DNA of 44,559 nt from a virus: IMG/VR virus record IMGVR_UViG_3300005582_002476, positions 1 to 44,559 of that record. The stretch is one strand, 5' to 3'. Shown piece after piece: positions 4,160 to 26,049 of the stretch (position 1 is the stretch's first letter; every line of letters begins with the position of its first letter). A program made the position numbers and the translations under genes. The notes under the pieces were generated by a model. That model did not search any database and was not told the DNA's origin. It saw only the letters and a list, made by a program, of their open reading frames with translations.

Positions 4160-5164
4160 ATGAACCCAGAGATCAGTCAGTCTATTGACGAAGAGGTTGA
4201 GGAAAAAGCCGTCGTACGCGTCAGCGCCATGGGCGAGGTCAAGGCGTGTGCCAAGGGCGATGTCGCCGGTTGTGGCTACAAGAAGGGCGACAAGGTCTGC
4301 GGTAAGTGCGGAGCTATGGCCGTCATGACCAAGGGCGCGCCTACCGAGGACGAGGAATCCGAAATGGACGAGGAGATGTCCAAGGGAGAACTTGAACTCA
4401 TGCCAATGAAGAAAAAACCCAAAATGGCATCCGTTGAAGACGAAGAGACTGAAGACGACGAGACAGAAGTCGAAGAGACGGAAGTTGAAGAACGTACCGA
4501 GGGCAAGAAAATGCGCATGGAGCGCATGAACAAGATCGGTGTCAAGGACGCAAGTGATGACCACTTTATGTGTGCCTTTGACCGCAAGGTTCTGGCCCCG
4601 GAATCGGCAGCCTGCGAAGGATGCAAGGGTGGTTGTTTCGCCGTCAAGGGCGGCGTTGACATCCTTGAAGTAGAAGCGATCGCAGAGCAACAGTACGACG
4701 CTGAAGTAGTTGACTCTGGTTATAGCGACATCTTTGACAGGTTTGTGGTTGACCTTCGCAAGAAGGACGGCGAACTTATTGAGGCGTTCTATGACGGTTC
4801 TGGCAAGGATCGTGGATGGCAGCCATTGGAGGACGACGTCCTTTCAATCGCCAACGACGCAATCTCACCAGACGAGGCCGTTGACATCGCAGAAGGTTTC
4901 ATTGAGGGTAAGAGCCTGACCATCACCGTGAGTTCATACGAGGGCGGAATGTCCTACTGTGTTGAACTCGAAGGCAAGGACGGCTACTCGTACGATGTTT
5001 TCATTGACCCGGTGGAGGGCAAAGTCCTCGGTGCCGATCAGTGGGAATACGAAACTTCTGCCGTTGAACCTGGCATGCAGAAGGATGATGCCTTGATGGC
5101 AAGTTTGATGGAGTTTGAGGCACTTAGCGCGGAAGAAGAACTCCGCGAGAAGGGTCTCATCTGA
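4160..5164 (+). CDS. Acidic Cys-rich protein with a C-terminal PepSY-like domain
   Basis: The ATG at 4160 is preferred over one at 4115 because CGGAGGA lies at the right distance; this gives 334 aa. The N-terminal part has a Cys cluster (CAKGDVAGC, then CGYKKGDKVCGKCGAMAV) that looks like a small metal-binding knuckle. A long Glu/Asp/Lys-rich segment follows, then a second Cys group (CAFDRKVL, CEGCKGGC) around residues 135-160. The last ~100 residues resemble PepSY domains (YCVELEGKDGYSYDVFIDP, then VEGKVLGADQ). PepSY domains are often inhibitory or chaperone-like modules of protease propeptides, which is suggestive directly after a protease gene. A scaffold-like or protease-modulating role is inference. 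Confidence 0.6.
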   Translation: MNPEISQSIDEEVEEKAVVRVSAMGEVKACAKGDVAGCGYKKGDKVCGKCGAMAVMTKGAPTEDEESEMDEEMSKGELELMPMKKKPKMASVEDEETEDDETEVEETEVEERTEGKKMRMERMNKIGVKDASDDHFMCAFDRKVLAPESAACEGCKGGCFAVKGGVDILEVEAIAEQQYDAEVVDSGYSDIFDRFVVDLRKKDGELIEAFYDGSGKDRGWQPLEDDVLSIANDAISPDEAVDIAEGFIEGKSLTITVSSYEGGMSYCVELEGKDGYSYDVFIDPVEGKVLGADQWEYETSAVEPGMQKDDALMASLMEFEALSAEEELREKGLI

Positions 5165-5177
5165 GAGAGGTAATGGG

Positions 5178-5444
5178 ATGAAAAAGATCATGCGTCAAGT
5201 GGGCAATGATGCCCCAAGGAATATCGTCGATCTTTCGCCAAAGGCGGAAGAGGTCGTCGTTAGCGAACCCGTCGTTGAGGAAGTCAAGGTTGAAGAGGCC
5301 GTGGCGGAACCTGTCGTTGAGGAAGTCGCAACAGAGGCAGTCGCCGAGGAACATACTCACGACGAAAACTGCGAACACTCTGCAGAGGAACAGGCTCCGA
5401 AGCGTTCGCGCAAGAAGCAAGCCGAACCTTCAGACGCAGAATAA
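5178..5444 (+). CDS. Small acidic Val/Glu-rich protein
   Basis: The best start is ATG 5178 behind GAGAGAGG, giving 88 aa. The sequence is low complexity: a basic start (MKKIMRQVGN), repeats of the EPVVEEV type in the middle, a His/Asp segment (HTHDENCEH) and a Lys/Arg end. It sits 13 bases after its upstream neighbour in a tight cluster. The composition suggests a disordered protein, perhaps a scaffold fragment or an acidic partner that keeps a cargo protein inactive. No family is recognised. Confidence 0.5.
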   Translation: MKKIMRQVGNDAPRNIVDLSPKAEEVVVSEPVVEEVKVEEAVAEPVVEEVATEAVAEEHTHDENCEHSAEEQAPKRSRKKQAEPSDAE

Positions 5445-5453
5445 CGGGCCGCG

Positions 5454-8252
5454 ATGGACGCCGATAGGCGCATCAAAGCCGGTGAACGCAGGTCTACCCT
5501 GCTTTCGGAGACAACCTCTTTTGTGGCTTTGTCCGATGACGAGCTGATGCTCGTCGGCACAACCGACGATGAACATCAGTCTGACGACGGAATGTCACGT
5601 TGGGACACCAAGGTTGCGATCATGGCGAACGGCATGAATACGAGGGCCGTTCAGTTATTCGAGTCCCTGCTTGAGAAAGGTCTACGTCCCGGCATCGGAG
5701 CGGTAAACGCCGTCAAGAAGGGTGTCGCTGTCGTTGATGAGATGGGCAAGTTGCGTTGCCCTCCAGGAACAGCGAACGCCATGGAGTTCACCGACAATCT
5801 TGGCTCCAACTGCGGGATACCTGGTTCAAGAGTCAAACCGGAAGCGATTGGCGATGTGTCCAACATTGCTGGAGCGCAGAAGCTCCCTCGCATCGGCGAT
5901 GCAGACATACAGAAGAATAGGGGCGCCGAGACTGCGAAACGTTCTGCTCGAACCTCACTCGCCGAGGGTACGCGGAAGTTTCTTTTAAGGAAGAAGACCA
6001 AAGGCGATAACTCTTCGGCGTGGGCAGAGGCTCTTCAATCTCTCAGTAATCCTGGTGAGGGTTTATCATTTGACATCGTCCTTGGAGAAAATGCCAAGGA
6101 AGGCTACGCCATAGCTAGACCCAATAGAGGTATTGCGGTTATGGCGGACACGCTGTTTGATGAAAATGGTGAACCGACGGAGGACGGGGCTCTTCAACTG
6201 GCGAGGATGATCTCCGTTAATGCCGATGAGATTCTGACCCCAGCAACCGTCACCGTCAATGGTAAGAGTGTGACTGCGGAAAAAGTTGTGCTTGGCGCGT
6301 GGCACTCCGATAAGGCCCACAACATAAACGGCGAACTGATTGACATGAACGGTGACGTTGTTACTGATGGTGACAAGGCCGCCGATCTACGAGAGGCACA
6401 GGACGCTGGACTCGGCGTGTATGGGTTTGTTTACTTTGACATATCCGACATATTTCCTGAAAAGATTGGGGATGCGGATGCGTATGAGATCGGCAAAAGC
6501 CGAAATCAGCAATCCATTGCAAACTTGAGACTCCTCGGGGAGGGTAACTTTGATGCAGTTGATCTTGACGGCATTAACAATGACCTGACCGGAGCGTTTA
6601 TCAACACAGGCGGGACGGGTGGAGACCTGATGCCCAAGGACGCCTTTGAGAGCATGGTCGTAAGTTCCGTTAGATCGTTTGCTACAGATGGACCACTAGA
6701 GCAAGCGATCAACTCAAATGGCGGAACGACCATGGACATAGAGAACTTCACCCCGAAGCAGGTGAAGCAAATGCTTGGCTACCTAAAGGAGGCCCCAGGG
6801 TTTGAGTGGATTGACTCGGAAAATGAATCCCACTTAGCTGCCGCAATCTCTCAAATCTCAAGCAATCTTGTACTACTGCTGGATCAGACTAACGAAGATC
6901 AACGCAAAACATGGATGAGGTGGTATGACATTGCCAATAACTTCAGTCGTAGGATGGCGAAAGAGACCGGCGTGTCGGACAGAACGATGGCCGCCGTTAT
7001 CGCTGCTCTATCTCCTCAGAAAGATTGGGATCAGAACACAGCCATGGCCGAGCATCTTGCGCGCCTTCTGTCTGACAAGGACCTAAAACTGTCAGATGTT
7101 GTTGCCAAACGAGCCTTAGATTTTGCCGTTGGCGTATGGAGAGTCAGGAATGAGGGCGATCAAGGTTACGAGCAAAAGATCTCCTCAATCAAGAAAAAAA
7201 TCTCTGAGTCAGAGATCAAGATCAAAGAGGGTCTTGCTAAGAGTGGTGAAAAAGCAAAGCAGATGATTGTCAACGAGAGGGAAAAAATCGCCAAGATGTG
7301 GATGGAGATTGAGGATATTGACCGATCTCGTAACGCAGATACGAAGCCAAAACTTGAAGATTTCCTTGGGCGCAACTTGCTTGACATGAGTGACACAAAT
7401 GCCGCGGCCGCCATTCGTGCGCACTCGGAGATCGAGGGTGGTGCATATCTTGGGATGCCTGACGCTCCACCAAAGACTAAGAAGAAATCCGGGGAAACGG
7501 TGTCTATGTCAAGACTTCGCCCGTACACAACGGAGTTTGGCGATAAAGGCCCTGGTGATCACACACTCACCCCCCGGGACGGGACGGTGATGGCAACAAG
7601 TTTCTCTACGTACACAACTGCGGTTAAAGTTTTCAGGTCAGGTGGAGGCTCGGCAGATATTGACAGGCTTCTGAACGGTAGCAAAGTTAGATCTTTCTTC
7701 AACAATATATTTATGCCGAATGACACGATCAACAGAGATGTAACGATTGACACCCACGCAATCGCAGGTGAACTTCTTGTACCCGTAAGTGCAAGTCACA
7801 TTATTACGGACCTTGGTTTTGCTCATGTGGCCGGACTCGGTACAGCAAGGGCATACCCGATAATGCGAGCGGCCATGATTGCGGCCGGCATTATGTGGGA
7901 AAAAAAGACAGGAGAGAAGTACCTTCCTCGACAGATCCAATCCATCACATGGGAGCAAATAAGATCCATGATTCCGTCAGCAACAAAGAAATACATGGTT
8001 GACAGGATGGCGCAACTTCAATCGCTCGCAAACGGCCCAGAAATGAATCCGTTGTTTATGGGCAAGAATAGGGAAGAGGCAGTACTTGCCCTTGTGCGGG
8101 CCGCAACCGTTGATCTGAAGCAAGAGGCTGAGGGCAGGGGCAAGAAGGTGACGAGGGAGCAACTCATACTTGAGGTAGCTCAGGATCTGGGACTCCCGTT
8201 GGGGGTCACTAAGTTGCCGCGCAAAGTCAAGAAGGTTGCGGAAAATAGTTGA
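5454..8252 (+). CDS. Large polyvalent-type protein with a DUF7178-like domain
   Basis: A 932-aa protein. Near the N-terminus is a CPPG-x14-CG motif (C102 to C120), also found in the 724-aa protein downstream. A block starting at W490 (WYDIANNFSRRMAKETGV, then VIAALSPQKDWDQN) and a distal block (KVRSFFNNI from 744; VTIDTHAIAG near 763-771) together resemble the phage family I know as DUF7178; a link to helix-hairpin-helix/glycosylase-like folds is uncertain. Between them, about residues 565-640, is a charged coiled-coil-like insertion. The C-terminus is basic and helical. The start at ATG 5454 has only a weak ribosome site. It lies in the run of giant genes between protease and capsid, so packaging in the head is plausible. 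The enzymatic role is unproven. Confidence 0.55.
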   Translation: MDADRRIKAGERRSTLLSETTSFVALSDDELMLVGTTDDEHQSDDGMSRWDTKVAIMANGMNTRAVQLFESLLEKGLRPGIGAVNAVKKGVAVVDEMGKLRCPPGTANAMEFTDNLGSNCGIPGSRVKPEAIGDVSNIAGAQKLPRIGDADIQKNRGAETAKRSARTSLAEGTRKFLLRKKTKGDNSSAWAEALQSLSNPGEGLSFDIVLGENAKEGYAIARPNRGIAVMADTLFDENGEPTEDGALQLARMISVNADEILTPATVTVNGKSVTAEKVVLGAWHSDKAHNINGELIDMNGDVVTDGDKAADLREAQDAGLGVYGFVYFDISDIFPEKIGDADAYEIGKSRNQQSIANLRLLGEGNFDAVDLDGINNDLTGAFINTGGTGGDLMPKDAFESMVVSSVRSFATDGPLEQAINSNGGTTMDIENFTPKQVKQMLGYLKEAPGFEWIDSENESHLAAAISQISSNLVLLLDQTNEDQRKTWMRWYDIANNFSRRMAKETGVSDRTMAAVIAALSPQKDWDQNTAMAEHLARLLSDKDLKLSDVVAKRALDFAVGVWRVRNEGDQGYEQKISSIKKKISESEIKIKEGLAKSGEKAKQMIVNEREKIAKMWMEIEDIDRSRNADTKPKLEDFLGRNLLDMSDTNAAAAIRAHSEIEGGAYLGMPDAPPKTKKKSGETVSMSRLRPYTTEFGDKGPGDHTLTPRDGTVMATSFSTYTTAVKVFRSGGGSADIDRLLNGSKVRSFFNNIFMPNDTINRDVTIDTHAIAGELLVPVSASHIITDLGFAHVAGLGTARAYPIMRAAMIAAGIMWEKKTGEKYLPRQIQSITWEQIRSMIPSATKKYMVDRMAQLQSLANGPEMNPLFMGKNREEAVLALVRAATVDLKQEAEGRGKKVTREQLILEVAQDLGLPLGVTKLPRKVKKVAENS

Positions 8253-8277
8253 CAGGTCAACATGATATATGTATCAT
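8249..8277 (+). promoter_or_regulatory. Sigma-70-type promoter TTGACA-N17-TATCAT
   Basis: TTGACA at 8249-8254, a 17-base spacer and TATCAT at 8272-8277 form a near-consensus promoter. The -35 box contains the TGA stop of the 932-aa gene. Transcription would start around 8284, about 20 bases ahead of the ATG at 8305 and just before its GGGAGGT ribosome site. It would separately drive the second half of the cargo cluster. Confidence 0.65.
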
Positions 8278-8283: not shown

Positions 8284-8304
8284 CTAACAACAGGGAGGTA
8301 TGAG

Positions 8305-8559
8305 ATGGCAAAGAGTGACGAGAAAGAAAACGGTCTGTTAGGGCATTACGACGACAATCCGTTTGCTGATGTATCAACTATCAGGGACGTAACCGATGAG
8401 CAAATGCTTGCGATGTATGACGACCCAGGGCATCTCAAGCTCCTACGAGAGGCTTACGGCGATTCAGTTACCGACGAGGAGTTTGAGGTGGACGTCAAGA
8501 AGCATATAGCGTGGTTAAAAACCTGTATCGCTATGCGAGAGGAAGAGGACGAGGAATAG
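8305..8559 (+). CDS. Small acidic protein of unknown function
   Basis: 84 aa, ATG with an excellent GGGAGGT ribosome site; first gene behind the promoter at 8249. The sequence is acidic and mostly helical, with no Cys. The middle (DEQMLAMYDDPGHLKLLREA) reads like a small helical domain, and the end is a run of Glu/Asp. No family is recognised. It is followed after one base by another very small gene, so the two are likely translated together. Confidence 0.6.
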   Translation: MAKSDEKENGLLGHYDDNPFADVSTIRDVTDEQMLAMYDDPGHLKLLREAYGDSVTDEEFEVDVKKHIAWLKTCIAMREEEDEE

Positions 8560-8560
8560 T

Positions 8561-8704: not shown

Positions 8705-8714
8705 GATACGCAAC

Positions 8715-10889
8715 ATGCGTATAAAAGCCACACGGCCCGACCCCTTCGCGGTGATTGCGTCCTCCGTCAAGACGGCGGCGGCTTTTTCGTCCCCAAAGTC
8801 TGCCGAGGGCGACTGCGGGTGTGGATGTAGTAACTCCGTCTCAGAGGACATCGCCCCCGTGTCGTCCACAAAATCCAGGAGGGTCAATGCCGACCGACAG
8901 AGGGTCTCCGACCTCTCTTCGCACCTTGGTCTCATCGGGGGCAGGCGCAACATTGTTGACCTCAAGGTTGCGGCCAGGATTGCCGACGAAGGCTCAGGAA
9001 AAACTCCCGTTCACGATCCCAACGCTTATGTCGTGGGTCTCCCGTCAAGGTTTATTCAACAAAAAGCCGGCCTCGTTCGTTCCAATAGTCGTATTGGTAG
9101 AGCCGCCCAATCTGCCGCGTCCATTGCCATCCCCGGAGATATGTCCAGGGTCAGGAGTCCTATTAGGTCGACCATATCCCGCGCCCTTACTCCTGGTGGA
9201 GGACGTGGGCTACCCGGCAGAATCGGTGGACAGCAGGTAGTCACTCGTTGCCCACCTGGATATGAACATGGCGGTAGGTTCTCTAACAACACATTCACGA
9301 ACTGCGGTATGCAGTTATTTGAGGCCATTGTGGCGGCCGCAACAGCGACCTCTGATGCGGCAAGCAACTCAAAACTACGCCTAGATTCCACGCCCGCTCC
9401 TTCAATCCTGAGGGGTGTCCGTGTTACGGCAGGCAAATACACGGGTGATGCCGTGGCAATCTCAAGGGCTGCCGATGTACCACGCATGAGTGTTCCGTCG
9501 GCAAAGAAAAGAGATCAGGCAATCTCTAGTGTTGTCAATAGTGCCAGTTCTGCCGAGGGTTCTTTTATCAGAATGGTCAGGGCGGACGGTGTCACTTTCT
9601 TGCCCATCGGCAATATGGCAAGAATCGCCAAACAGAGAAATAATACCGACATGAAGGGGGCAACATGGGTCACCGCGCTCAACTCTCCTCAGGCAATCGG
9701 CGGGGAAGAAATAGCACTCTTTGGTGCCGGGATTTCCAGCATTAGGTATGCGATTCCTGGCTCAGGTGAGCTCAGGGTTGACGCAACTAAGCCGATCGGA
9801 CAAGCAAGAGCGAGTGCCCTCATGAGGAAACTTTCGTCGGCAAGAGCAAAGGGCGACCAAAACGGTTCGGCTCTTAGGGAAATGGTCAGGCAGTCCAATG
9901 GCGACCTCGTCTACTCTGAGTCGTTCCCAAATATGGACAAACCAAACGAACTCGTAGTCATTGCCAAGGGCAAGGAACGCATGACGATGCCAAGGTGGAT
10001 CTATGAAGCTTGGTACACGGATAAGTCATCGGGCAAAGACAAGTCCTCTGGTTGGACGGTCATCGACACAGTTGTGAACTCGTCGTCTCAAGAGGCAATA
10101 GGCAAGGATGTGAAAGCCGAGGCAACCGCCGAGTCACTTGGCGCACTCTCTTCATTTGATAGAGGCAAGGCCCTCGCCCTCGGTAAGTCCAAAGACATCG
10201 GTGCAGGCAGGACTGCGGTTTCTATGAACGATGGGACTACATGGATCGTCCACGATCAGGATGGCGACTCCCATATCGGAATCGTGGTTGGTAACGACAT
10301 AGCAAAGAGCCTCGGCGTGAACGCCCCTAACTCATACCTCTCGGGTGAAGGCAATGCCCGCAAGGCCGTAGTTGAGTCTCCAAGCGAAATCATCGGGATG
10401 AAGATGACCAAAGACGGCTCAATATCAGACACCCCGGGCGAACAACTAGCCAAGATCGTGATCGTTGACTACCTCACCAACAACAAGGGAAGAACTCCGG
10501 CGACGGTCGTCCCCGCAAAAGGCAAGGGCGATGACGTCATCTCAATGTCCTCATCTCGAAACCTACTTGCGGGTGTAGGGGGAGCCAAGTTGCCGTCGCA
10601 ACAGGACTTCCCTTCGTATCTAAAGCAAGATGGCTCAAGTAAGTGGCTGGCCGAGAAGGTGGCGAATATGGAGAAGATCAAGGAAAAGGTCGCCGCAATG
10701 TACGAACAACTCCTACGGCAAGCCGAACAGTTTGACTGGGACGCGTATATTGACAGGCTTGCCATTGCTGGCCTAACCGACGGCGAGAAGACGCACCTTG
10801 GATTAACCAAGCAGCTTTATGAACTGAGAGTCAATCAAATGAGGTCGTCTAGGAAGACCTTCCTCTCGGCTCTTGGGGTAATCGCATGA
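8715..10889 (+). CDS. Large cargo-type protein with CPPG-Cys motif and a possible pseudokinase region
   Basis: A 724-aa protein. Residues about 1-175 are Ser/Arg/Ala-rich with a CGCGC cluster. C179 to C197 form the same CPPG-x14-CG motif as in the 932-aa protein. Residues about 495-615 look like a distant, degraded version of the kinase region in the 3404-aa protein: TTWIVHD at 508-514 lines up with the Lys-bearing QTFVIKS strand there, and VDYLTNNKGR (584-593) with MDSLFRYYDRQGDN, but the Lys and the catalytic Asp-Arg...Asn are missing. The last 100 residues are helical and charged. If correct it is a non-catalytic relative, perhaps a partner or decoy of the giant kinase. This is by-eye alignment only. 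It overlaps the next gene by ATGA. Confidence 0.5.
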   Translation: MRIKATRPDPFAVIASSVKTAAAFSSPKSAEGDCGCGCSNSVSEDIAPVSSTKSRRVNADRQRVSDLSSHLGLIGGRRNIVDLKVAARIADEGSGKTPVHDPNAYVVGLPSRFIQQKAGLVRSNSRIGRAAQSAASIAIPGDMSRVRSPIRSTISRALTPGGGRGLPGRIGGQQVVTRCPPGYEHGGRFSNNTFTNCGMQLFEAIVAAATATSDAASNSKLRLDSTPAPSILRGVRVTAGKYTGDAVAISRAADVPRMSVPSAKKRDQAISSVVNSASSAEGSFIRMVRADGVTFLPIGNMARIAKQRNNTDMKGATWVTALNSPQAIGGEEIALFGAGISSIRYAIPGSGELRVDATKPIGQARASALMRKLSSARAKGDQNGSALREMVRQSNGDLVYSESFPNMDKPNELVVIAKGKERMTMPRWIYEAWYTDKSSGKDKSSGWTVIDTVVNSSSQEAIGKDVKAEATAESLGALSSFDRGKALALGKSKDIGAGRTAVSMNDGTTWIVHDQDGDSHIGIVVGNDIAKSLGVNAPNSYLSGEGNARKAVVESPSEIIGMKMTKDGSISDTPGEQLAKIVIVDYLTNNKGRTPATVVPAKGKGDDVISMSSSRNLLAGVGGAKLPSQQDFPSYLKQDGSSKWLAEKVANMEKIKEKVAAMYEQLLRQAEQFDWDAYIDRLAIAGLTDGEKTHLGLTKQLYELRVNQMRSSRKTFLSALGVIA

Positions 10890-11170
10890 ACAAGGTCGCC
10901 TTCGTAAAGAGTATTGACGGTGGGAAGTTTGCCGTACTCGTTGAGAGCGACGGAGGCGTGGACGCTATCGGTATCTCTGCCCACGGGAAAGAGTGGTCGG
11001 CCTGGGTTGATGTCCTCCCATTCAGGGAACGCAGGAAGATAGAGGATGTCCTTTGGTCTGTATCAGAGGCTCAGGTTGTTGATGGGCCAAGAGTCCCAAC
11101 GAGGGTTGAACGTGCCGATATTACCGCACTACTGAACGGCGAGCAGACGGCCAACATAACCAACGGTTGA
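10886..11170 (+). CDS. Small protein coupled to the 724-aa gene, unknown function
   Basis: 94 aa; its ATG overlaps the upstream TGA (ATGA at 10886), so translation is probably coupled. The sequence starts MNKVAFVKSIDGGKFAVLVE and looks like a compact beta-rich domain followed by a helix (FRERRKIEDVLWSVSEA). No Cys, signal or membrane segment. A comparable small gene also overlaps the end of its neighbour ahead of the 1275-aa gene, so these may be dedicated partners of the giant proteins. No family recognised. Confidence 0.55.
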   Translation: MNKVAFVKSIDGGKFAVLVESDGGVDAIGISAHGKEWSAWVDVLPFRERRKIEDVLWSVSEAQVVDGPRVPTRVERADITALLNGEQTANITNG

Positions 11171-11190
11171 TCTATGGATACGCCTTAGGG

Positions 11191-17200: not shown

Positions 17201-20200
17201 AACTCGGACACGACATCATCACCAAGAGTCCGCCAAAGTACGTCTCATGGGCAGCGAGCAAAAAAACCGGCAAGAACATAAATGACGTTCCGTGGGACAC
17301 ACTTGAGCCAGAGGTTGCCGACGAAGCATTGAAGATCCTGCTCGAGAACAACAACTTTGATGATCTGTCAAAGATGGGTCTCACTACCGCCCATAAGTTC
17401 AGTCACCTGAACACAGAAACCCCAGAACAGATTGCAAGTGTGATTGAGTTCTTTGAGCAAAAGGGAAAACAAGCCGAGGCCAACCCCGACGATGATCTCA
17501 ACACAGAGGGCAGTGGTCAGTGGGGGTTGTTCTCTGTCAGGGTGAAATCGTTTAGCTCTTCAGATAAGGTCATGCAGTTCTCCGTCCTACTCGGTGGCGA
17601 GGACATGGCGTTCGCACTTGCTCATCCCGGCGCCTTTGGTAAGCCGCTATGGACATACGACTCGGTGGCTTCCTCTGGGGACAGTATCGGCGACATCTTG
17701 GATACTGGTACTGCGGCCGAGGCACTACGAATCGTTGATAACCCCGCAGACATGTCATTTGTGGCTAACGGCAACATAGAAGGCAGTAGGTTGCAGGCCG
17801 TCGCCTCTGCGTGGGACGGGAAGCTCTACAGCAACGCTCAATACAACCCCGATCATGCCACGAAGGCGATGGCCGACGCCGAGAAACGCCTTGCGGATAT
17901 GGGCGCAATCCTAAAAGAGGTCATTGGCAACAGAGACCCCAAGAAGATGACGATTGCCGAACTCAAGGAGGCACTTGCCGGCAAGGTCTTCGGCGAACCC
18001 GATGCCTTTATTGGCAAGATGATGGAGACGGCGGTCAGGCTTGACGTCACCAAGAAGTTCCTGGCGACTCGCATGATGGCAACTCAAGATGCCCTTGAGA
18101 CCGAGCAAGAACTCAAGGAGATGCTCGACAAAAACCCTAAGGGCATTGGGCAAATCTTGAAACTGGACGCAGAACTCAAGACCGAGATGATCAGTGCGGT
18201 AAAAGACCTGACGAACGCAACGGTGGCATTAGAGAACGCAACCACCGGCATGGACATCAAAGAGCAGTACGACAGGGTAAACGAGGCAAAGAACAGGGTC
18301 AGGGCTGCCGAGGCTCTTGCAAAGGTATATACCGATGTAACAGAGGCGCACAAAAAGAAGTTCACCACCGTGTTCAGTGGCGGCGAGCAGTACGACCTCA
18401 AGAAGTCCTCAGTAGTATCCGAGAACGCGCCCTCGCTTGAGAACGCGTCCAACATTGCTGCGGCCATTGCTCCGATCATGCCGAGTGGAACGAGTATTGG
18501 CATATTCAAGGAAGACCTCGGCGGCTACGCCCTCATCAAGATGGAAGATGCGATTGACGCCGGTATGCCTGCGCCAGATGCGATCTTCTCCAGTTCGGGT
18601 GTTGGTGGAATCCCTGTTGTTGACTCAACCGAACTCATGAACCTGACGACTGCGCCGGGTATGCCGAAGTTGCCCGACAACTATCAGGGAACAACCGCAC
18701 TCGGTGTCAACTCGGTGGACGGTAAGGCAATCGGACAGCACATCCCGACCCCGTTGTCGATTGACTCATCGCCGATTGACGAGAACCATCCGTTAGTGAA
18801 GGAGTGGTCGCAAAAGATTGCGGACGGTGCAAGCCTTGCCGATGTTCCTAACGAACTCCTCAAGGAGAGCATCTGGGCAAACACCGAAGGTGGCGGTGGC
18901 GGTAGTGGTCGTTTCAAGTTGTTGTCCAAGGCGAGTGGTTTCAACGATCAGGGCAAGGGTCCAAAAGATCAGACACAACGATTCCTCGACACGGCAACTG
19001 GTCAGACGTTCGTCATCAAGTCGGCAACAAGGAACGACCAAGAGGGAATCCGCGAACTCTTTGGCAATCAGGTCATGCAGATGCTGGGCTTCCCGTCGTC
19101 GGGTGGCCGAACTGCTGGCGTTGTTGACAAGTCGCCGAATAAGTTCCCAGACTTCCACCCGGAGTACGACGCAGAGGCAGATCAAGTACCTATCCTCATT
19201 GAGTCCTCGGAGATGCTCTATGACGGCAAGTCGCTTGGTCATATCCGAAACATGCCGTCGTCTCAACAGAACGACATCATCTCAAGGCTGACCCCTGAGT
19301 CTCTCGCTACCGGCGTGGTCATGGACTCGTTGTTCAGGTACTACGACCGACAGGGCGACAACTGGATCGCAGTTGAACTTTCAGACGGGTCAGTCGCCTA
19401 CCATCCGATCGACCACGGTAATGCTTTTGGTCCATTCAAGGGGCACAAGTTCTTTGACAAGGACGGCAAAAAGATCAGCAAGGGCAAAGACTCGCCTGCG
19501 GACGAGGACGCCCTTGGTTTCATGTTTAGTGGTCTTGACGGCGAGGGCGCATGGAAGATCGCAAGGCAGTCAATGAACACTCCTGAACGTAGGCAGATGT
19601 TCGCAGAGTCCATTGTCCATGCCGTGAGGCGCGCAGAGTCCGTTGACTATGCGGGTGAAGCCGAGAAGTTGATTCAGGGACAAAACCTTGGAGGCAAGTT
19701 GGCCGCAAGGGCACGCACTTCGGCGCAGACGCTAGAGGAGAAGAAGGGCAGACTTGACTCATACGTCGACCCGATGCTGAGGGAGCTCGGAATGACCGAC
19801 GAGGAGATAGCCGCCGTCAGAACCAAGGTTGACGCAGATCTTGGTGGTGGTGTCATGAAGGCATCTCAGTCACCAAAAGTTCTCGCACCGCAAGCAGCAG
19901 CACCGAAACTCTTCTCGCCAACACCGATTGACGGCGAAGAAGCGTTCGGCAACGCTCCCGCCGCAGGAGGAAAAACGGTCACACTTGCCATCAACGAGTC
20001 AATGCTTGACCCTTCGTCCGTTCACTACACCACGATTGGTTTAGGCGGTCAGACAAAGGAGGGCGTAAGGTTCGTATCCTTCCCGCAAGCAGGTGAGGGC
20101 AAGTCTCCGATTGCTTCAATGTCAACGAGGCTCGACTACGAAACATCCAAGTCAATCGGAGAGGCACTTGCTTCAGGCAAGGATGCTCAGGGCAATCCAG

Positions 20201-21453
20201 TTGAAATACTTCAGGTGGGTAGTGGCCATAGGGCGTATCAGAGTAATGGTGGTATGTGGAACCATGTTAATGGTGTTCCAAATACGGCAACTGCCTCGTA
20301 TGACGGAAAGTACGTCATGGCGAAGATGTCAGATGGCGCAATCGTCCTGGTCAACTATGACACTAAGGAAAAGAGCGATGGCACCTATTCCTCAAGGGGA
20401 CTCGTCTCCGTGTTCTATCCAGAAAATAGGCCAAACGCAGAAAAAGTCGCATCCACATTGTCTTCCATCGGTGTCTCGGACATTGGTTATGTGAATGACG
20501 ATAGATGGAAGTTGGCGGCCGCCGAAATGCTCACCAGAACATTTGACAAAGAACTACTAAATAGCGGGGACAGTCTCGCCGTCAGGTTGGCGAGGATCGC
20601 ATCAGATAGGGGAATCACAATCAACGACCTTGAGCCGTACCATGACAGCATGGGTAGGCTCAGGTATAGGTTGAGCGACGAAGGCTACAAGTCATTACTT
20701 CAGAAGCACCCCAACCTTGCGCAGACAACGCACTTCGGTAAGAGCATGGGCACCTATAACGATGGATCAAACGTCGTAAGGCTCATTAAGTCCGGCGGAC
20801 AAGTATCAAAGATTGAGCAAGTCATGAGTGGTAGTGGACTCCAAACGAACGCTGCCGCTGGTCAGGGTGGATATGGTGCGTCACCACAAAGCGACCTCAC
20901 ATCAGGCGGTGGTGATGGACTATTTATGTCAGCGTTCTCTGGTGGTGCCGCCGGCGACTCAAAGGGCGTGCACATAAACGCGTCTTCTTTCTGGGGAACT
21001 GGCAAGGACACATGGGTCGTTCTTGATGCCGAGACACAGTTGAGGGACGTTGGCTGGTGGGCGCACGGTCCGCAAGACGGCCCGTATGGCGCGTTGAACC
21101 CCCTCACCTCAAACGGCAGCACGGCAAAGAACATGGACTCAACCGACCCGATTGAACTCATGGAGGAGGCTCGAGTCTTTGAGTTTATGGGCAACGGGAC
21201 AACACCCTTGGAGCACATTTCATTCATCATCCTCCCACCAGCAGCAAGAATCAAGGCCATACAGAAGTTGAAGGCAGATGGCGTTACACAGATCAACGGT
21301 AAGCCGATTGAGGAGTTCATCGTCAGTTCTAGGGCCGGCTCCAAGGTGAGGGCAGCACTCGGACCGCTCTGGACAAAGTCTAAGTTCGGCTCTATCGCAA
21401 CGCCAAAGAAAGCCTCGCCCGCAGAACTTGCCGCAGAAGGCACGACGGTCTAA
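11239..21453 (+). CDS. Giant 3404-aa polyvalent protein: pentapeptide-repeat helix plus HipA/PI4K-like kinase domain
   Basis: One uninterrupted 10.2 kb frame, ATG 11239 behind GTGAGG. Order of parts: a ~120-aa N-terminal domain; an acidic DADGD loop (126-147); Lys/Pro/Arg-rich linkers; three copies of a ~45-aa module (about 355-373, 458-475, 573-590; core VVD-ER-L-AMGVEP); more Pro/Lys linkers; a pentapeptide-repeat segment (about 989-1358); long helical linkers; unknown globular parts (about 1750-2560); an atypical kinase region (about 2575-2820) with VIK Lys2594, DRQGDN (D2703, N2708) and IDHG D2725; and a ~550-aa C-terminal region of unknown fold. The kinase pattern resembles HipA and PI3/4-kinase-like enzymes. 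Pentapeptide helices can mimic DNA and inhibit gyrase. Packaging and injection with the DNA is inference from position and the polyvalent class. Confidence 0.75.
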   Translation: MHKSRIEFSVLTRKAAIDASSVALGVRVASRLSTGRTTGFANSTKGVPFVHTETIDFEFRRPNDRVHYFRLEGLTKAANENAIRAKSLIATTGPDIILWPERDGSFDFKKLASIGKRTRTAAQGYDPDASDADGDMIVQDGTPWERPKTPKISKRGQRKPGKTRVAVASGLENVADRVDQAAAKRRSRRQERGPLKERIAGRIEGVADRIDKRRSGKPSKPGDESAEKPKRSRAGLAERFGDYVLGDQRVKPSKDKPSQKPDETPDVTPDNEPETNLDELAPPDITTAKPKTPVEDVTATATATEKLPGRVIGKPDDDRAFAMVTARNSSLAKPNLKEGDDNKPQNLHVVKNDEGKFVVVDDERLKAMEGVTPVATFRDGKVTSLDGEPKKANNKKASAEKIAAAPGWGRQEPNGNSAEDSISNIDNTTFYGPGGASGESKKFQDGEAAHLIQSFDGKYFLVDEEKLQALGVEPIKSYRAGEGEFVYASEKPPKVTPSKPKEDVAVGQIPGEGPMEKPSLPEVSADAKKKPKKSKLDGKQDGKYKNPATAYVRANKLSAEDGKDRYVVEAPGGGYAVVDKERLDAMGVEPRSSHSMGKGKSTGGTFNKPKTPETDALDTNAPEADKPEADTPEAKKPKKPSVTTLQPPEPGTEKGPVPEWLKPKPEKPEPEKPEFPAWLKPKDPEAEKPEAKKPKEVATTTDKDQYDEVTDALDAFNDRINKGEVISSDDIQELRNRIETMPDLLGDEEGDEHQKFVYDALARIDNLESAKKPKEATPTKKLTAKKTPKQSIQYLNQELDKAQKLYDAGDKEGATAYAKQSMANIDEARKEGLLRANEYTAESFMAQIDELRWHADGHPGLEDDTESETPAVLETPKEQVPSQLSAKPYNDLNSLIEKAKKDKDPGSFDDADALVNEMIKVRVNELKKSGLWPKDYGNDSIYMGLVKQRDDLAIFREDVASAAGYSMTKPKTPKPSKPKKPAKITPGMNLSGLDLTEYVLNDGGIELKGRDLSNTDLSGLSLANMDLSGANLTGASLDGTDLTGANLSGANLEGASLSGADMLGANLTGANLEGANLEGATLTQADLTGAKLSGASLIDANLEEAKLGGADLSGASLKGVYLTGADLSKANLSDANLSDTNLANASLEGADLTNADLTDAVLEGAAMRDAELEGANLFGANLFGADLTSAHMPNANLEGADLRDTSMNGVVLLDANMTGANLMGADLSDAVMNRASLDGADLRNANLTSVALREADLAGASLNNANLSSADLRKANMSNTIMEGANLKNANLSGADLESADMANVNLNGADLEGADLNSANLEGADLRDSDLTNADLRQAQLESADLTGANTTGTKFDADFNAPDWEDEELFDYADLPDGEKWKSVGRAGYKQRIDDLNSMTDTWFESPEDREAIYDLGIERANEAITERFQELSDAGLDNYEIGKDPVTNELVKISERLKAEKDAPPTNLASNKPQSDAKKIVNDSGDLADDVSQGKAKNVLQALEAENDPSNDEAIAKLTNAIAKNEAENPTPITPSSPLPYKTSKKLNTEAMDAADYDVDGANDSIGEVLDAQKESLRGILANELGVSKSLNDEQMREAAVQAYNNLGELSGIPEANKEYAATRARVKTHLHNWDVLTRQGAYSEDNSPELTHIDRLNHLSPAGQKSFLKALEESALKRIELEPGEEITQEDLDQLQEIVKTFDSFLQPQGKKPKKPKEVAKEIVDDFVANVEKDVAGPKPEPKPTKIDGLSMKIASIGQVAILNPDDARSKGVPTLGAEDESKFPPGSILGYLELPPDKTLSGAQQLAYQTTGEKTYLPKGMKKGDIELAQITAADGSLVAVVLNAKADGFSDWDPEQVFPNAYGEDTPGEFSNWVNHGNPHTDASPDEDSPLSGAKTISMDGTEINDNKPTLPGGPEISMWTRLSKAIGGMPFDSNEENVQNLLRDKFGDDGGIIVRSPDGNYHAMSMKDWDESFSKMTDSEQLGHDIITKSPPKYVSWAASKKTGKNINDVPWDTLEPEVADEALKILLENNNFDDLSKMGLTTAHKFSHLNTETPEQIASVIEFFEQKGKQAEANPDDDLNTEGSGQWGLFSVRVKSFSSSDKVMQFSVLLGGEDMAFALAHPGAFGKPLWTYDSVASSGDSIGDILDTGTAAEALRIVDNPADMSFVANGNIEGSRLQAVASAWDGKLYSNAQYNPDHATKAMADAEKRLADMGAILKEVIGNRDPKKMTIAELKEALAGKVFGEPDAFIGKMMETAVRLDVTKKFLATRMMATQDALETEQELKEMLDKNPKGIGQILKLDAELKTEMISAVKDLTNATVALENATTGMDIKEQYDRVNEAKNRVRAAEALAKVYTDVTEAHKKKFTTVFSGGEQYDLKKSSVVSENAPSLENASNIAAAIAPIMPSGTSIGIFKEDLGGYALIKMEDAIDAGMPAPDAIFSSSGVGGIPVVDSTELMNLTTAPGMPKLPDNYQGTTALGVNSVDGKAIGQHIPTPLSIDSSPIDENHPLVKEWSQKIADGASLADVPNELLKESIWANTEGGGGGSGRFKLLSKASGFNDQGKGPKDQTQRFLDTATGQTFVIKSATRNDQEGIRELFGNQVMQMLGFPSSGGRTAGVVDKSPNKFPDFHPEYDAEADQVPILIESSEMLYDGKSLGHIRNMPSSQQNDIISRLTPESLATGVVMDSLFRYYDRQGDNWIAVELSDGSVAYHPIDHGNAFGPFKGHKFFDKDGKKISKGKDSPADEDALGFMFSGLDGEGAWKIARQSMNTPERRQMFAESIVHAVRRAESVDYAGEAEKLIQGQNLGGKLAARARTSAQTLEEKKGRLDSYVDPMLRELGMTDEEIAAVRTKVDADLGGGVMKASQSPKVLAPQAAAPKLFSPTPIDGEEAFGNAPAAGGKTVTLAINESMLDPSSVHYTTIGLGGQTKEGVRFVSFPQAGEGKSPIASMSTRLDYETSKSIGEALASGKDAQGNPVEILQVGSGHRAYQSNGGMWNHVNGVPNTATASYDGKYVMAKMSDGAIVLVNYDTKEKSDGTYSSRGLVSVFYPENRPNAEKVASTLSSIGVSDIGYVNDDRWKLAAAEMLTRTFDKELLNSGDSLAVRLARIASDRGITINDLEPYHDSMGRLRYRLSDEGYKSLLQKHPNLAQTTHFGKSMGTYNDGSNVVRLIKSGGQVSKIEQVMSGSGLQTNAAAGQGGYGASPQSDLTSGGGDGLFMSAFSGGAAGDSKGVHINASSFWGTGKDTWVVLDAETQLRDVGWWAHGPQDGPYGALNPLTSNGSTAKNMDSTDPIELMEEARVFEFMGNGTTPLEHISFIILPPAARIKAIQKLKADGVTQINGKPIEEFIVSSRAGSKVRAALGPLWTKSKFGSIATPKKASPAELAAEGTTV
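14203..15312 (+). repeat. Pentapeptide-repeat array (about 70 tandem A(D/N)LxG units)
   Basis: Within the giant gene about 1.1 kb encodes tandem five-residue units of the A(D/N)LxG/A(S/T)LxG type (for example GANLEGANLEGATL). These build a right-handed square beta-helix, four units per turn, so this one would have about 17-18 turns. At DNA level the first part (about 14320-14620) uses mostly GGCGCA for the Gly-Ala pair and the later part (about 14690-15190) mostly GGTGC, hinting at two separate amplification events. Confidence 0.9.
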
Positions 21454-21479
21454 GTCATGGACGCAAGTAGGTTGTTCAC

Positions 21480-21926
21480 ATGAAGACGAAGAAGACACTT
21501 AGCTTCAGCGATATGTTGGATCAGTACCAATCAGTTGCTGCGGTACCTGCGAAAATCAGGCAGATGCCAGACGACGAAGAGGACTCGCCGGGCATTGTTA
21601 TTATGTGGGACACCAATCACCCCATGGCTGCCTACTACCTTGACGAACCGATGACCAAGTACGTCATTCCATCTGCCGAGATCGTCGGCAGCGAGGATGA
21701 CGCACAAATCGAGGCGTCAATGCTCACGACCGGTGTTTTTGCACCCATGAGACCGACCTCTATCACAAAGACAAAAGAGGGTCTGATCTTGTTCATGACC
21801 CTTGATCGAGTCGCCGACATAGCCGTAAGGCCGCTGACCGTTGAGGACTCGCAGTGGGTTAAGGGTGGACCTTCTAAGTCCATGCAGGAACTCATCAACT
21901 ACATAGCCGAACAGGATACGTTGTGA
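21480..21926 (+). CDS. Conserved-looking small protein of unknown function
   Basis: 148 aa, ATG 21480, 26 bases after the giant gene. It starts MKTKKTLSFSDMLDQYQSV, followed by a mixed alpha/beta globular domain (IVIMWDTNHPMAAYYLDEP, ..., LILFMTLDRVADIAVRPL) and a short C-terminal helix. No Cys, membrane segment or known motif is visible. Its stop overlaps the next start (GTGA at 21923), so the pair is translationally coupled and belongs to the cargo operon. It may be a partner or chaperone of one of the giant proteins. Confidence 0.55.
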   Translation: MKTKKTLSFSDMLDQYQSVAAVPAKIRQMPDDEEDSPGIVIMWDTNHPMAAYYLDEPMTKYVIPSAEIVGSEDDAQIEASMLTTGVFAPMRPTSITKTKEGLILFMTLDRVADIAVRPLTVEDSQWVKGGPSKSMQELINYIAEQDTL

Positions 21927-22225
21927 AAGATTCCGTCGCCTACATCTACAGCAGGGCAGTTGACGCTGACGACGCACCGATCGCCATGATCGTCCTTGAG
22001 GGTGGCGTACTTAGGTTCTACGCACCCGAGGGTTCGTCAATGTCCAACAAGGCTAAGTCTTTGACGGCCAATGCGTTACAACTCGAGCCCGACGAGGCGG
22101 AAGACTATTTTGACACCTATGTTGATAGGTGGAACGGGCAGAGTATGCACGCCACCGTGGTTGCCCTTACCGGTGCCGCAGCAAGGAAGGTTGAGGTCAC
22201 TAAGGCCAAGTGGAGGAAGGCATGA
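21923..22225 (+). CDS. Small protein of unknown function, coupled to both neighbours
   Basis: 100 aa from a GTG that overlaps the previous stop (GTGA). Its own TGA overlaps the ATG of the 1275-aa gene (ATGA at 22222). The sequence begins MKDSVAYIYSRAVDADDAP with a beta strand (AMIVLEGGVLRFYAP), an acidic helix (ALQLEPDEAEDYFDTYVDRW) and a basic tail (VEVTKAKWRKA). Overlap at both ends suggests its amount is matched to the zeta-domain protein. It is in the right place to be an antidote or chaperone for it, but nothing in the sequence proves that. Confidence 0.55.
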   Translation: MKDSVAYIYSRAVDADDAPIAMIVLEGGVLRFYAPEGSSMSNKAKSLTANALQLEPDEAEDYFDTYVDRWNGQSMHATVVALTGAAARKVEVTKAKWRKA

Positions 22226-25200
22226 GCGGCAAAGAGCCGTTGCGTGATCCAGATGGCGGACTGACTGCCGCGGGCCGTAGGCACTTCAGGGAAACTGAGG
22301 GCGCAAACCTCCGCCCAGGCGTGAGAGGTGCCGCAGATACGCCGACCAAGATGCGCCGTAAAGGCTCATTCCTAACTAGGTTCTTCACCAACCCATCTGG
22401 ACCGATGGTTGACGATAATGGCGAACCGACTCGCCTGGCATTATCGGCAAGGGCATGGGGCGAACCCGTGCCGAAGAACATGGATGATGCCGCCAAACTT
22501 GCGGCCAAGGGACGACGCCTTCTTGAGAGGTACGCCAATCAGAAGGAAAAACAAGACTCCAAAGCCGCAGATGGCAAGAAGAAGAACGCCACCAGGGAAG
22601 AAGCACTTGCCGTTGCAAAGATGATGGGTTGCGACACCGTTCATGAGGTTGAAGGTGGCTGGATGCCATGCTCTTCATCTGAAGAAATGGAACGCATATC
22701 AAAGTTGGCCGAGGATGACTCGTGGCTCAACGAACCGATCTCCGGCAAGGACATGGTCTCACCGTCGGGTAGGAAGAGGAAGCGAAGAGTACGGCGATGG
22801 GAGAATCTTGCCCAACGTTCCTACGGAATGACGGGTGTTCCCGGTGTCGGTATCGTCTCTGCTTCTCCGGCAAAACCAACTAGCCCAATGGGCGACTCTT
22901 ATGCTTCTGGGCCGTCGGGTGTCATCACACTCTCTGCTGAGGGCAAGGAACTACAGCCTTTTACGCCAGAAGTCGGCGAGCCTGATGTGTTCACATCAGC
23001 CGATGCGGCAAGGATGCGTTCAAGGCAGATCGGTTGCACTGGGATCAGGAGATACACGACGAGGTCAGGTGTCAATGTCTGGATGCCTTGCACCACGGGC
23101 GTTACCTTTGACAGGACGATGGGGTACGGGGCGTATTCAAGGTCAGGAAGCAGGCTTGAGTCGGCGAGGATTGAACGCGAGGTACGCAGGCAACTCCGCG
23201 CTGCTGGTCACACCGGTGGCAAGTCGGCTAGAAGGCTCGCCGCAACACCGGCAAAACCCTCCGAACGAGTACGCGGATCGTCGTCAAATAATGAGGGTTC
23301 GGCATCGTCGGTTAGTAGTGCTCGGGGGATAGCCCTCTCAGCCGAACAGGACAAGGCACTCGTTGTAAAGGCGCGCGAACACAACGCCAAGATGGCCAAG
23401 AATGGTAAGCCCAAGTGGTCTCGCACTTCACCAAACGCACTGAAGGCTGTCATGAGGCGGGGCATGGGTGCGTTCAGTTCGTCGCATCGACCCGATGTAT
23501 CGTCCCGTCAGCAATGGGGCATGGGACGCGTGAACGCCTTTCTTGTGATACTTGAGAAGGGCGCACCCAATAACCGAAAGTACACAACCGACAACGACCT
23601 TCTCCGTGCGGGGCACCCATGGAAGGAACGCACCATTGGGCGCAATAGCAAGATGTTGCCACCGACAAATGGAGACGGCACCTCCACGAACCAGTCAACG
23701 AAGAAAGAACCGATAGACGCCGACGGAGACGGTTGGGTTGACGAAGGCAAGCCGACAAGACGTTTCGTCGGAATCAGTGCCGTCAGGGACGCAGTTCGTT
23801 CGGGTGTTGGTCGAGGAAGAGACATATTCGGTAGAGGCGGTTCCAGGAGGCAGGACAGGTCAATCCGAGTTTCTGCCGGTGAGGGCGCACTCGGCAGGGC
23901 CAGGTCACGAAGGATTGCTAGTGATATGCGATCCGCAGTAGAGCAGATCGCTGATGGTGGCAAGGCACCTAAGAAAATCAAGTCAAAGAAGACATCAAGT
24001 GTGCCCGAAAGAATCTCATCAAACAGACTCAGGAAACTCAAACCTCAGAGGATCAACCACTCGTCATTGGTGAGTACGCAGAAGGCGTATCCACACGCTC
24101 CAAAGATTGAGGGCGACTTCCCTCCAAGAACGATGGACGAACTAGGACGCGCCAGGAATGGCGGGATCAAGAGCACTTTTGACCACTTTGGGATTGGTTC
24201 GGGTGAAATCCCCGCAGAACGTAGAGCCCTACACGAGGCGATCATCAACTCAATCATCTATGGCAACGGCAAGTGGTCGCCAAAGAAACAAGAGAACCCC
24301 GCGGCATGGATTATGGGTGGCGGACCCGCTTCCGGGAAGACTTTCCTCAGGCAGGGCGGCTTCTTTGACACTCCATCACGAGGCGACGCAGTCCACCTGG
24401 ACGCCGACGAGATCAAGCATATGATCCCCGAGTTTGACTCATTGGTCAAGGAGCTTACTGATGCGGGCATGGATCCGACTCAGGCGGCCTCTGCGGTTCA
24501 TTCTGAGTCAACATACATTCAGAGGCAAGCCATAGCAAGGGCGGCCTCTGAGGGCTTTCATGTCGTCGTTGACTCGACTGGCGACGGCGGCCCAAAGTCT
24601 TTCCATAGCAAGATTGACGCACTCCGCGCCGCTGGCTACAAAATGAAGGGGAGGTTTGCCGATGTCTCAATCGGCAAGGCACTCACCGATGCAAAGGCCA
24701 GGCAAAAAGAGCAGAAGCGCGGCGTTCCGGATGACATCCTTATTGACACGCACATTGACGTCGCCCGTGCCGTTTTGTATTCATTGGAGAACGGACTTTT
24801 TGACGACTTTGAGATAGTAAATAACGAGAACCACAACGCCCCGGTAACCGTGGCTGCGTTTAAGGATGGCGTCCTCGCCGTTCACGACACCAAGAAGTGG
24901 TCGGAGTTCATTAGTAAGGCAAGGCTTGCCTTCAAGAACGATTACAAAGAGGACTACTTTGACGACATCAAGAAGGGTGCGGGCAGGACTCGCAACAAGG
25001 CCGAGAGGGCAACTGCGCGCAAGGTCAAGAGGAAAGAGGTTGAGGGCGTTGAGACCATAACAGCAGAACCCGTTCGTTCGCTGGCCGAGGCACTCAAGGA
25101 CTCAGGTATTGACTTTACTAAAGTGAAGGCAGTTCCCGCCGAGAAACGCGTAGAGATTGCTCAGGCATACAACGGATTGCCCGAGAGGTCTCCCGAGGCG

Positions 25201-26049
25201 AAGGAGGCATACGACGCCCTTCAGGCGGAGATTGAGGAACACTTCAGGATGCTGACCGATGACTTTGGTGTCAAGGTTGAGTTCGTTGACAATGATCCGT
25301 ATACGGACGGCGTTGAGATGATGGACGACATTGAGAACAACGGTGTCCTAAAAGTCCTCAAGACGGAGTCAACCGGGTCGCACCCTTACTGGTCGGACGA
25401 GGTGAATGATATGTTCCGCGCTGTCCACGACGCCTTCGGACACGCCGCCACGGGCAGGGGCTTTGATAGGCATGGCGAGGAGGCCGCCTATCAGGCGCAT
25501 CGTTCTATGGTGACGAACGCACTAGCAAGGCTTGCCCTTGCGACCGAGACGAGGGGGCAAAGTGCCGCCCTAATCGAGGGAGGGGAGTTCCCCGTTCAGA
25601 AGGCCGCACTCCTTGACGAGATACTTACTAAGCAGGCCGCATTACCACCGATGCCGAGGATGGTCATCCCATCAGACCCGCCGATTCAGACAGGCATGAT
25701 TGACTCCGTCCCGGCTACGGCAGATCAAGACAATGTTTACGAGTCAACCAGGTGCCACCATGTCTCGGGTGGTAGGAGGTTGGAAGGTCAAGACGAGGTC
25801 GTTCCCGTTGGTGGCCTGTACTCCGACCTGGGTGATGACATAAGGCTCTCGCCTGAGACGAGGCAGAAGATCTATGTGGTTGCGGCTTCGGGAGCGGATT
25901 CGCTTGAGGACTCTGGCCTTGACCCCGACAATAAGAGGATTGCCTCATATTTCAAGTCCGTCAAGAAGGGCATCAAGTCCCTGGGCAAGAACGACATGGC
26001 CGCAATCCCTAACTCCGCAGTTGAGTCACTCCCTGACTCCGTCGGGTGA
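22222..26049 (+). CDS. Polyvalent protein with zeta-toxin-like kinase and a C-terminal VHDxFGHA domain
   Basis: 1275 aa from ATG 22222 behind GGAGGAAGG. N-terminal ~100 residues (DPDGGLTAAGRRHF, RRKGSFLTRF, LSARAWGEPVPKN) resemble what I know as DUF6321. Two Cys motifs ending in WMPC follow (C137-C150, C272-C290). Then a block RRGMGAFSSSHRPDV...NAFL (about 412-445), an acidic EF-hand-like loop DADGDGWVDEG (499-509), and a zeta-toxin-like P-loop kinase with Walker A GGGPASGKT (699-707), HLDADEIK (725-732), VVDSTGDGG and an ARQKEQKRG arginine region, ending near 900. A second domain has AVHDAFGHA (H1069, D1070, H1074), HGEEAAYQAH (1084-1093) and ETRGQ, like a possible metal-binding enzyme. Zeta enzymes phosphorylate UDP-GlcNAc-type sugars and poison wall synthesis; this substrate is inferred. 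No epsilon antitoxin is seen. Confidence 0.75.
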   Translation: MSGKEPLRDPDGGLTAAGRRHFRETEGANLRPGVRGAADTPTKMRRKGSFLTRFFTNPSGPMVDDNGEPTRLALSARAWGEPVPKNMDDAAKLAAKGRRLLERYANQKEKQDSKAADGKKKNATREEALAVAKMMGCDTVHEVEGGWMPCSSSEEMERISKLAEDDSWLNEPISGKDMVSPSGRKRKRRVRRWENLAQRSYGMTGVPGVGIVSASPAKPTSPMGDSYASGPSGVITLSAEGKELQPFTPEVGEPDVFTSADAARMRSRQIGCTGIRRYTTRSGVNVWMPCTTGVTFDRTMGYGAYSRSGSRLESARIEREVRRQLRAAGHTGGKSARRLAATPAKPSERVRGSSSNNEGSASSVSSARGIALSAEQDKALVVKAREHNAKMAKNGKPKWSRTSPNALKAVMRRGMGAFSSSHRPDVSSRQQWGMGRVNAFLVILEKGAPNNRKYTTDNDLLRAGHPWKERTIGRNSKMLPPTNGDGTSTNQSTKKEPIDADGDGWVDEGKPTRRFVGISAVRDAVRSGVGRGRDIFGRGGSRRQDRSIRVSAGEGALGRARSRRIASDMRSAVEQIADGGKAPKKIKSKKTSSVPERISSNRLRKLKPQRINHSSLVSTQKAYPHAPKIEGDFPPRTMDELGRARNGGIKSTFDHFGIGSGEIPAERRALHEAIINSIIYGNGKWSPKKQENPAAWIMGGGPASGKTFLRQGGFFDTPSRGDAVHLDADEIKHMIPEFDSLVKELTDAGMDPTQAASAVHSESTYIQRQAIARAASEGFHVVVDSTGDGGPKSFHSKIDALRAAGYKMKGRFADVSIGKALTDAKARQKEQKRGVPDDILIDTHIDVARAVLYSLENGLFDDFEIVNNENHNAPVTVAAFKDGVLAVHDTKKWSEFISKARLAFKNDYKEDYFDDIKKGAGRTRNKAERATARKVKRKEVEGVETITAEPVRSLAEALKDSGIDFTKVKAVPAEKRVEIAQAYNGLPERSPEAKEAYDALQAEIEEHFRMLTDDFGVKVEFVDNDPYTDGVEMMDDIENNGVLKVLKTESTGSHPYWSDEVNDMFRAVHDAFGHAATGRGFDRHGEEAAYQAHRSMVTNALARLALATETRGQSAALIEGGEFPVQKAALLDEILTKQAALPPMPRMVIPSDPPIQTGMIDSVPATADQDNVYESTRCHHVSGGRRLEGQDEVVPVGGLYSDLGDDIRLSPETRQKIYVVAASGADSLEDSGLDPDNKRIASYFKSVKKGIKSLGKNDMAAIPNSAVESLPDSVG

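Follow-up and report, generated by a model that had tools for sequence, protein, structure and literature searches.

A conserved block of giant polyvalent proteins between the prohead protease and capsid genes of an environmental phage clade

The window analyzed here is the complete IMG/VR record IMGVR_UViG_3300005582_002476, a linear fragment of 44,559 bases. Between the stop codon of its Peptidase_S78 prohead protease and the start of its HK97-type capsid gene lie 22.1 kb, occupied by five large proteins (349, 932, 724, 3404 and 1279 amino acids (aa)) and small partners, all encoded on the plus strand (Table 1). We think it probable that the giant proteins of this block are internal head effectors, which enter the head with, or by means of, the prohead protease and are injected together with the DNA. 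Packaging is strongly implied by the observations below; we infer it, as we do cleavage, injection and the target of each domain.

The block and its conservation

A first-pass annotation had proposed that proteins of 932, 724, 3404 and 1275 aa separate the two genes. Their positions were correct, but the last figure reflects a later start (the protein has 1279 aa from a GTG codon), and two genes must be added: a 349-aa PepSY protein, which belongs to the conserved core, and an acidic ORF of 88 aa. The small coupled partners that it placed between the giants were also recovered: the open reading frames (ORFs) of 94, 148 and 100 aa all abut or overlap adjoining genes. The homologue of the 94-aa partner forms the N terminus of 2200-2460-aa proteins in three relatives (blastp).

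Relative to the nearest relative, the ratio of nonsynonymous to synonymous substitution rates (dN/dS) is 0.05 for the 349-aa protein, 0.10 for the 724-aa, 0.15 for the 3404-aa and 0.08 for the 1279-aa protein, and 0.07 for the capsid; it is 0.23 for the 932-aa protein and 0.31 for the extended protease. Because all genes for which the ratio could be computed (the 94-aa ORF is not among them) fall between 0.05 and 0.31, indicating purifying selection, the ORFs of the block are not chance occurrences.

In one scan of IMG/VR we found 301 capsid relatives, of which the best 80 were kept, and 41 records were searched for S78. In the 29 contigs that have both genes in order, the capsid lies 15.3-35.8 kb away from the protease domain (median 24.2 kb). 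The expectation that the two genes are normally adjacent was borne out in isolates: S78 lies directly 5' of the capsid gene in Gordonia phage GMA6, the closest cultured relative (49% capsid identity), and the gap is 2-30 bases in PhancyPhin, a Vibrio phage, mEpX2 and TZGordon. This adjacency of the S78-type HK97 head module is found neither in the window nor in its clade. However, the idea that the block was inserted between the two genes does not hold, as the spacing in the 29 contigs and the gene order in 26 genomes make it this clade's normal arrangement. With small variations, profiles of window segments recover in these genomes the order S78, PepSY protein, CPPG giant, mod214, 724-aa family, DUF3721 protein and capsid, with the PepSY protein and the 724-aa family present in all 26. 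The block accounts for 14-26% of coding capacity in the three genomes in which we measured it.

The genome of relative G002 is circular, with about 130.3 kb: the ends overlap by about 136 bases, and G001 spans the junction. This genome bears on the possibility that the giants are tail or host-recognition proteins in an unusual order. Their size is within the range of tape measures and fibres, and the pentapeptide repeat described below weakly overlaps a PHROG named tail fibre. However, in G002 it is the region at 42-68 kb, far from the block, that encodes the sheath, a collagen-like tail fibre, a 1505-aa tape-measure candidate and further virion proteins. We therefore consider the phages to be myovirus-like with a block separate from the tail genes, and we reject the tail-protein explanation, to which we assign practically no probability.

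A genome scan yielded two contigs from metagenome-assembled genomes (MAGs): one is from an Actinomycetota MAG (70% capsid identity), the other, whose coverage is very low, from a Verrucomicrobiales MAG (61%). An actinobacterial host is likely, although not proven.

Domains of the giant proteins

The domain content anticipated by the first-pass annotation was confirmed. The 1279-aa protein has a zeta-toxin kinase domain (Pfam E 1e-23; E 3e-9 to the solved zeta toxin 1gvn), in which the Walker A sequence GGGPASGKT and the catalytic aspartate in LDADEIK align with those of 1gvn. The Walker lysine is present in 12 of 13 zeta sequences of the clade, and the remaining one does not include that part. 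The domain with the motif VHDxFGHA in the same chain corresponds to phrog_3170 (E 8e-44). In two relatives, zeta, DnaJ and NUDIX domains are joined in one chain, and CPPG giants of relatives carry a 3'-5' exonuclease.

The 3404-aa protein begins with a long, proline- and charge-rich part. Its pentapeptide helix (Pfam pentapeptides, E 4e-88) is acidic, with a net charge of -40 over 376 residues. The proposed HipA/PI4K-like kinase was confirmed by structure prediction and not by sequence: when its profile was compared with solved structures, only sub-threshold hits were obtained, but the model of residues 2471-2858 has a HipA/CotH/PI4K fold (Z 13.8 to CotH, 12.0 to CtkA and 11.9 to PI4KII). In the modelled segment, D264, R265 and N269 (catalytic) and D286 (metal) are invariant among 6 sequences.

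The 724-aa protein matched no family. In its AlphaFold model, where the predicted local distance difference test score (pLDDT) is mostly about 70-88 from residue 478 on and residues 1-255 have no confident model, the C-terminal domain matches CtkA with Z 15.1 over 210 residues. A profile-profile comparison of this domain with the 3404-aa kinase gave a match probability of 98.3%. Because most catalytic positions carry other residues in an alignment of 17 family members (the catalytic Asp position is a mixture of G, E and D, Asn is Ser in 13 of 17 and the metal Asp is Asn in 14 of 17), the family is best read as a predicted pseudokinase, an assignment that depends on the alignment. Neither the 724-aa protein nor the kinase region had a tblastn match in 50,697 phage records, and hence neither occurs in cultured phages at the sequence level.

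These chains agree with the concept of polyvalent proteins (Iyer et al. 2017, PMC5512222), as had been suggested. Single chains combine at least two unrelated domains: zeta kinase, phrog_3170 and DUF5824 in the 1279-aa protein, and pentapeptide helix and kinase in the 3404-aa protein. The genes are part of the late virion gene set of a portal-terminase phage, flanked by protease and capsid and with portal-MuF and the terminase large subunit in the window. MPTase and ArdC-N, which are frequent but not obligatory hub domains of polyvalent proteins (PMC5512222), occur in relatives and not in the proteins of the window. Giant multi-effector chains near virion genes and MuF-fused phage zeta kinases were both described in that work. 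However, the assemblin-like peptidases there are always C-terminal, while S78 is N-terminal to the effectors in this clade, and the clade has several chains per genome in one conserved protease-capsid cluster with common short modules. The block is distinguished from known polyvalent systems by its protease-led chains, its fixed position between protease and capsid, and these modules.

Protease-led chains

In the window a single gene joins the S78 domain and mod214; in most relatives mod214 has a gene of its own, of about 215 aa. The long extension of the window's protease therefore belongs to the block's system, as the first-pass annotation had surmised; ArdC-N and MPTase-PolyVal behind S78 in relatives agree with this. 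Among S78 sequences the His motif is kept in 25 of 27 and the SIGY motif in 27 of 27. All six relative protease frames longer than 2,900 aa that we tested (2943-4736 aa) combine an N-terminal S78 with ArdC-N and MPTase-PolyVal in one chain; five of them also have a UvrD helicase, and one also has exonuclease, KTSC and sigma-like regions. Two shorter frames (1935 and 2305 aa) have S78 with neither ArdC-N nor MPTase-PolyVal. Since the protease is the N-terminal domain of a giant chain in many relatives, the enzyme that must enter the procapsid would carry cargo, and it could cut that cargo loose. We found no paper that links a prohead protease with giant fused proteins.

The protease also has a Cys cluster similar to the one in high-potential iron-sulfur proteins (HiPIP), which occurs in block proteins of ten relatives as well; in Actinomycetia phage DSL-LC01 a gene annotated as a high-potential iron-sulfur protein adjoins the protease.

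Short modules shared by block proteins

Four short modules (CPPG..NCG, DGDG/ERP, DUF3721 and DUF6321) recur among the block proteins. We detected them by profile searches, as our first regular-expression motifs found nothing in relative G028, whose module variants differ. We counted 90 large block proteins besides the protease, the capsid and the PepSY protein; 83 of them have at least one module, and for 82 of the 83 the first module is within residues 1-300. In three whole genomes, modules occur in 13 of 18 large block proteins versus 3 of 80 elsewhere (Fisher p 7.5e-10). As block sequences served to build the profiles, this test is biased. All three hits outside the block come from G008, where they belong to a second group of large proteins at 41-52 kb. 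That group (41456-52048 of G008, i.e., 1456-12048 of L178) consists of three proteins of 563, 1616 and 1164 aa on the opposite strand, which have the DGDG/ERP module and matched nothing in Pfam.

Independent signs come from head genes of other phages. In the T7-like pelagiphage HTVC031P, a small gene located between scaffold and capsid consists of DUF6321 alone; as a weaker sign, DUF6321 is near a head-assembly gene in S-RIP1. DUF5824 is present in a Roseobacter phage CRP-821 protein that carries a capsid annotation, in Salinibacter phages in the gene immediately preceding the capsid homologue, and in DSL-LC01 within the head cluster. A tentative extension, which we consider less likely than not, is that the head cluster works as a modular system for loading: S78 would be the delivery vehicle that covalently carries effectors into the procapsid, maybe cutting later, and the small set of interchangeable N-terminal modules would be an address code by which any chain could gain entry to the head.

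Indirect evidence for packaging and a proposed mechanism

We propose that the giant polyvalent effectors are made late and become incorporated into the procapsid core along with the S78 protease. They would be trimmed during protease-driven head maturation, remain in the head beside the DNA and pass with it into the next host cell. Judging from their families, the zeta kinase may act on sugar precursors of the cell wall and the HipA/CotH-like kinase on proteins or lipids of the host, and the acidic pentapeptide helix may be a DNA mimic. The ArdC-N, helicase and exonuclease domains of relatives may protect or process the incoming DNA.

Such a route has precedents. T4 and SPN3US both have internal proteins that reach the procapsid core, undergo trimming by the prohead protease and are ejected (PMC9026906, PMC10052503). 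T4 Alt and IPI-III are internal head proteins that also have a common N-terminal targeting element (PMC9026906). However, T4 elements are about 10 residues long and removed, whereas the clade's modules, as putative counterparts, have 25-80 residues and often lie 100-250 residues into the protein. SPN3US and phiKZ-like giant phages similarly have a large head protein load and a prohead protease that cleaves N-terminal propeptides (PMC10052503), but the packaged proteins described there, which we compared by description only, are not polyvalent chains of this clade's kind.

By analogy, we regard virion mass spectrometry of cyanophage P-SS2 as the best external support for packaging. Its ORF030, with MuF and zeta domains and located next to or fused with the capsid, was represented by 96.5 peptides on average in virions (PMC2784084). 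As in the clade, a zeta kinase is encoded directly at the capsid gene; however, P-SS2 has a single MuF protein, no protease-to-capsid effector block and no S78 match in its record. Head clusters with effector-type or giant genes also occur in GMA6, where 2H phosphoesterase, ADP-ribosyltransferase and HNH genes lie between portal-MuF and protease, and in DSL-LC01. In both, however, the extra genes are between portal and protease, and S78 adjoins the capsid (GMA6) or nearly does so (DSL-LC01). Gp205 of Rhodococcus phage E3, which shares the VHDxFGHA/phrog_3170 domain, is labelled 'structural protein', and the gene for its homologue in mycobacteriophage Astraea comes shortly after the capsid and head-fibre genes.

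Several points weigh against this interpretation. The P-SS2 peptides were reported for the whole 1500-aa ORF, which is split in two in the deposited record; because of this split the peptides may come from the capsid half only, and the second half has no Pfam match. The basis of the 'structural protein' label of E3 gp205 could not be checked. Proteins of the window have no ArdC-N or MPTase domain detectable with Pfam, while six relatives have both at the same locus. Finally, we know of no consensus for S78 cleavage sites.

In an alternative reading, the proteins would be made after infection and act in the cell unpackaged, their place beside the capsid gene reflecting co-regulation or chance. 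In-cell synthesis of effectors is exemplified by T4 ModA and ModB, non-injected paralogues of the packaged Alt (PMC5512222). We nonetheless regard this explanation as very improbable, given the same position in 29 contigs, the fusion to a prohead protease, the recurrence of modules at head genes of unrelated phages and the P-SS2 virion peptides.

It is also conceivable that the giants are structural or scaffolding proteins of the head (core, decoration or head fibres), whose enzyme-like domains serve assembly rather than host takeover. The presence of a core set, i.e., the PepSY protein, mod214 and the 724-aa family with its degenerate kinase fold, in nearly every genome of the clade is what would be expected of assembly parts, and the lone DUF6321 gene of HTVC031P points in the same direction. 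However, the variable members keep their catalytic motifs (Walker A and Asp in zeta; D-R-N-D in the kinase), and the DNA-directed ArdC-N, UvrD, exonuclease and sigma-like helix-turn-helix domains have no assembly role. As an account of all the giants, a structural function is unlikely. A mixture, in which the core proteins are structural and the variable ones effectors, is probable.

Features of the window

Table 1. Features in and around the block, in window coordinates
Feature	Position	Strand	Evidence
Prohead protease, 1014 aa	1012..4056	+	Pfam S78 E 1.2e-11, residues 21-164
Protease sub-features: S78; HiPIP-like Cys cluster; mod214; CGCGC motif; DGDG/ERP	1027-1518; 1711-1788; 1978-2433; 2497-2571; 2884-2967	+	Pfam, module profiles, motifs
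Cys-rich PepSY protein, 349 aa, conserved core	4115..5164 (PepSY 4859-5032)	+	Pfam E 5e-7
Acidic 88-aa ORF	5178..5444	+	Translation; known as ORF alone
932-aa protein: CPPG..NCG module 5745-5816, DUF7178 6822-7082	5454..8252	+	Pfam E 6e-20 (DUF7178), module profile
84-aa ORF, no assigned function	8305..8559	+	ORF only
724-aa core protein: CPPG module 9243-9308, HipA/CtkA/PI4K-fold domain (predicted) 10065-10886	8715..10889	+	Profile, AlphaFold
94-aa coupled partner	10886..11170	+	blastp
3404-aa polyvalent protein: DGDG/ERP 11608-11691, pentapeptide helix ~14281-15423, kinase (modelled) 18649-19812	11239..21453	+	Pfam, profile, model
148-aa ORF, kept in closest relatives	21480..21926	+	blastp, dN/dS 0.12
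100-aa ORF overlapping both neighbours	21923..22225	+	blastp, dN/dS 0.10
1279-aa polyvalent protein, GTG start	22210..26049	+	Pfam, PHROGs, 1gvn match, catalytic alignment
1279-aa domains: DUF6321; DUF3721 (two); DUF5824	22234-22467; 22603-22683 + 23008-23100; 23350-23631	+	Pfam
1279-aa domains: zeta-toxin kinase; VHDxFGHA/phrog_3170	24265-24909; 25075-25665	+	Pfam, PHROGs
HK97-type major capsid protein	26187..27527	+	Pfam Phage_capsid E 4e-41
Portal with C-terminal MuF domain, away from block	34310..36499	-	Pfam, homologue positions
Terminase large subunit	36717..38060	+	Pfam

Because portal-MuF is directly upstream of the protease in 22 relatives, its position on the minus strand of the window indicates that it moved in the window's sub-clade. 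Directly 3' of the capsid is an aspartyl/asparaginyl beta-hydroxylase-like gene (27587-28141; E 5e-17), which among the block pieces compared is otherwise found only in relative G004. The capsid region is also adjoined by a gene for a 639-aa B12-dependent (class II) ribonucleotide reductase (28538-30457, minus strand), whose homologue adjoins the capsid in G008. A C5 cytosine methyltransferase region (30963-34116) is made up of three consecutive ORFs (448, 256 and 345 aa). The first, which is the only one that was searched, matches through its N-terminal part, and the last ends like a methylase; possibly the three derive from a single gene that was interrupted, either by frameshifts or by a very long insertion.

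Implications

The fusion of protease and cargo ties cargo loading to head maturation. The sorting of large cargo proteins into phage heads is known mainly from the ten-residue tags of T4; if the modules described here are sorting elements, they would constitute a second, domain-based code and a route to predicting injected phage proteins. Because the clade is common in public environmental virus sets and, in the three genomes measured, devotes 14-26% of its coding capacity to the block, these genomes would present a large uncharacterized set of anti-host and anti-defence enzymes, laid out in order.
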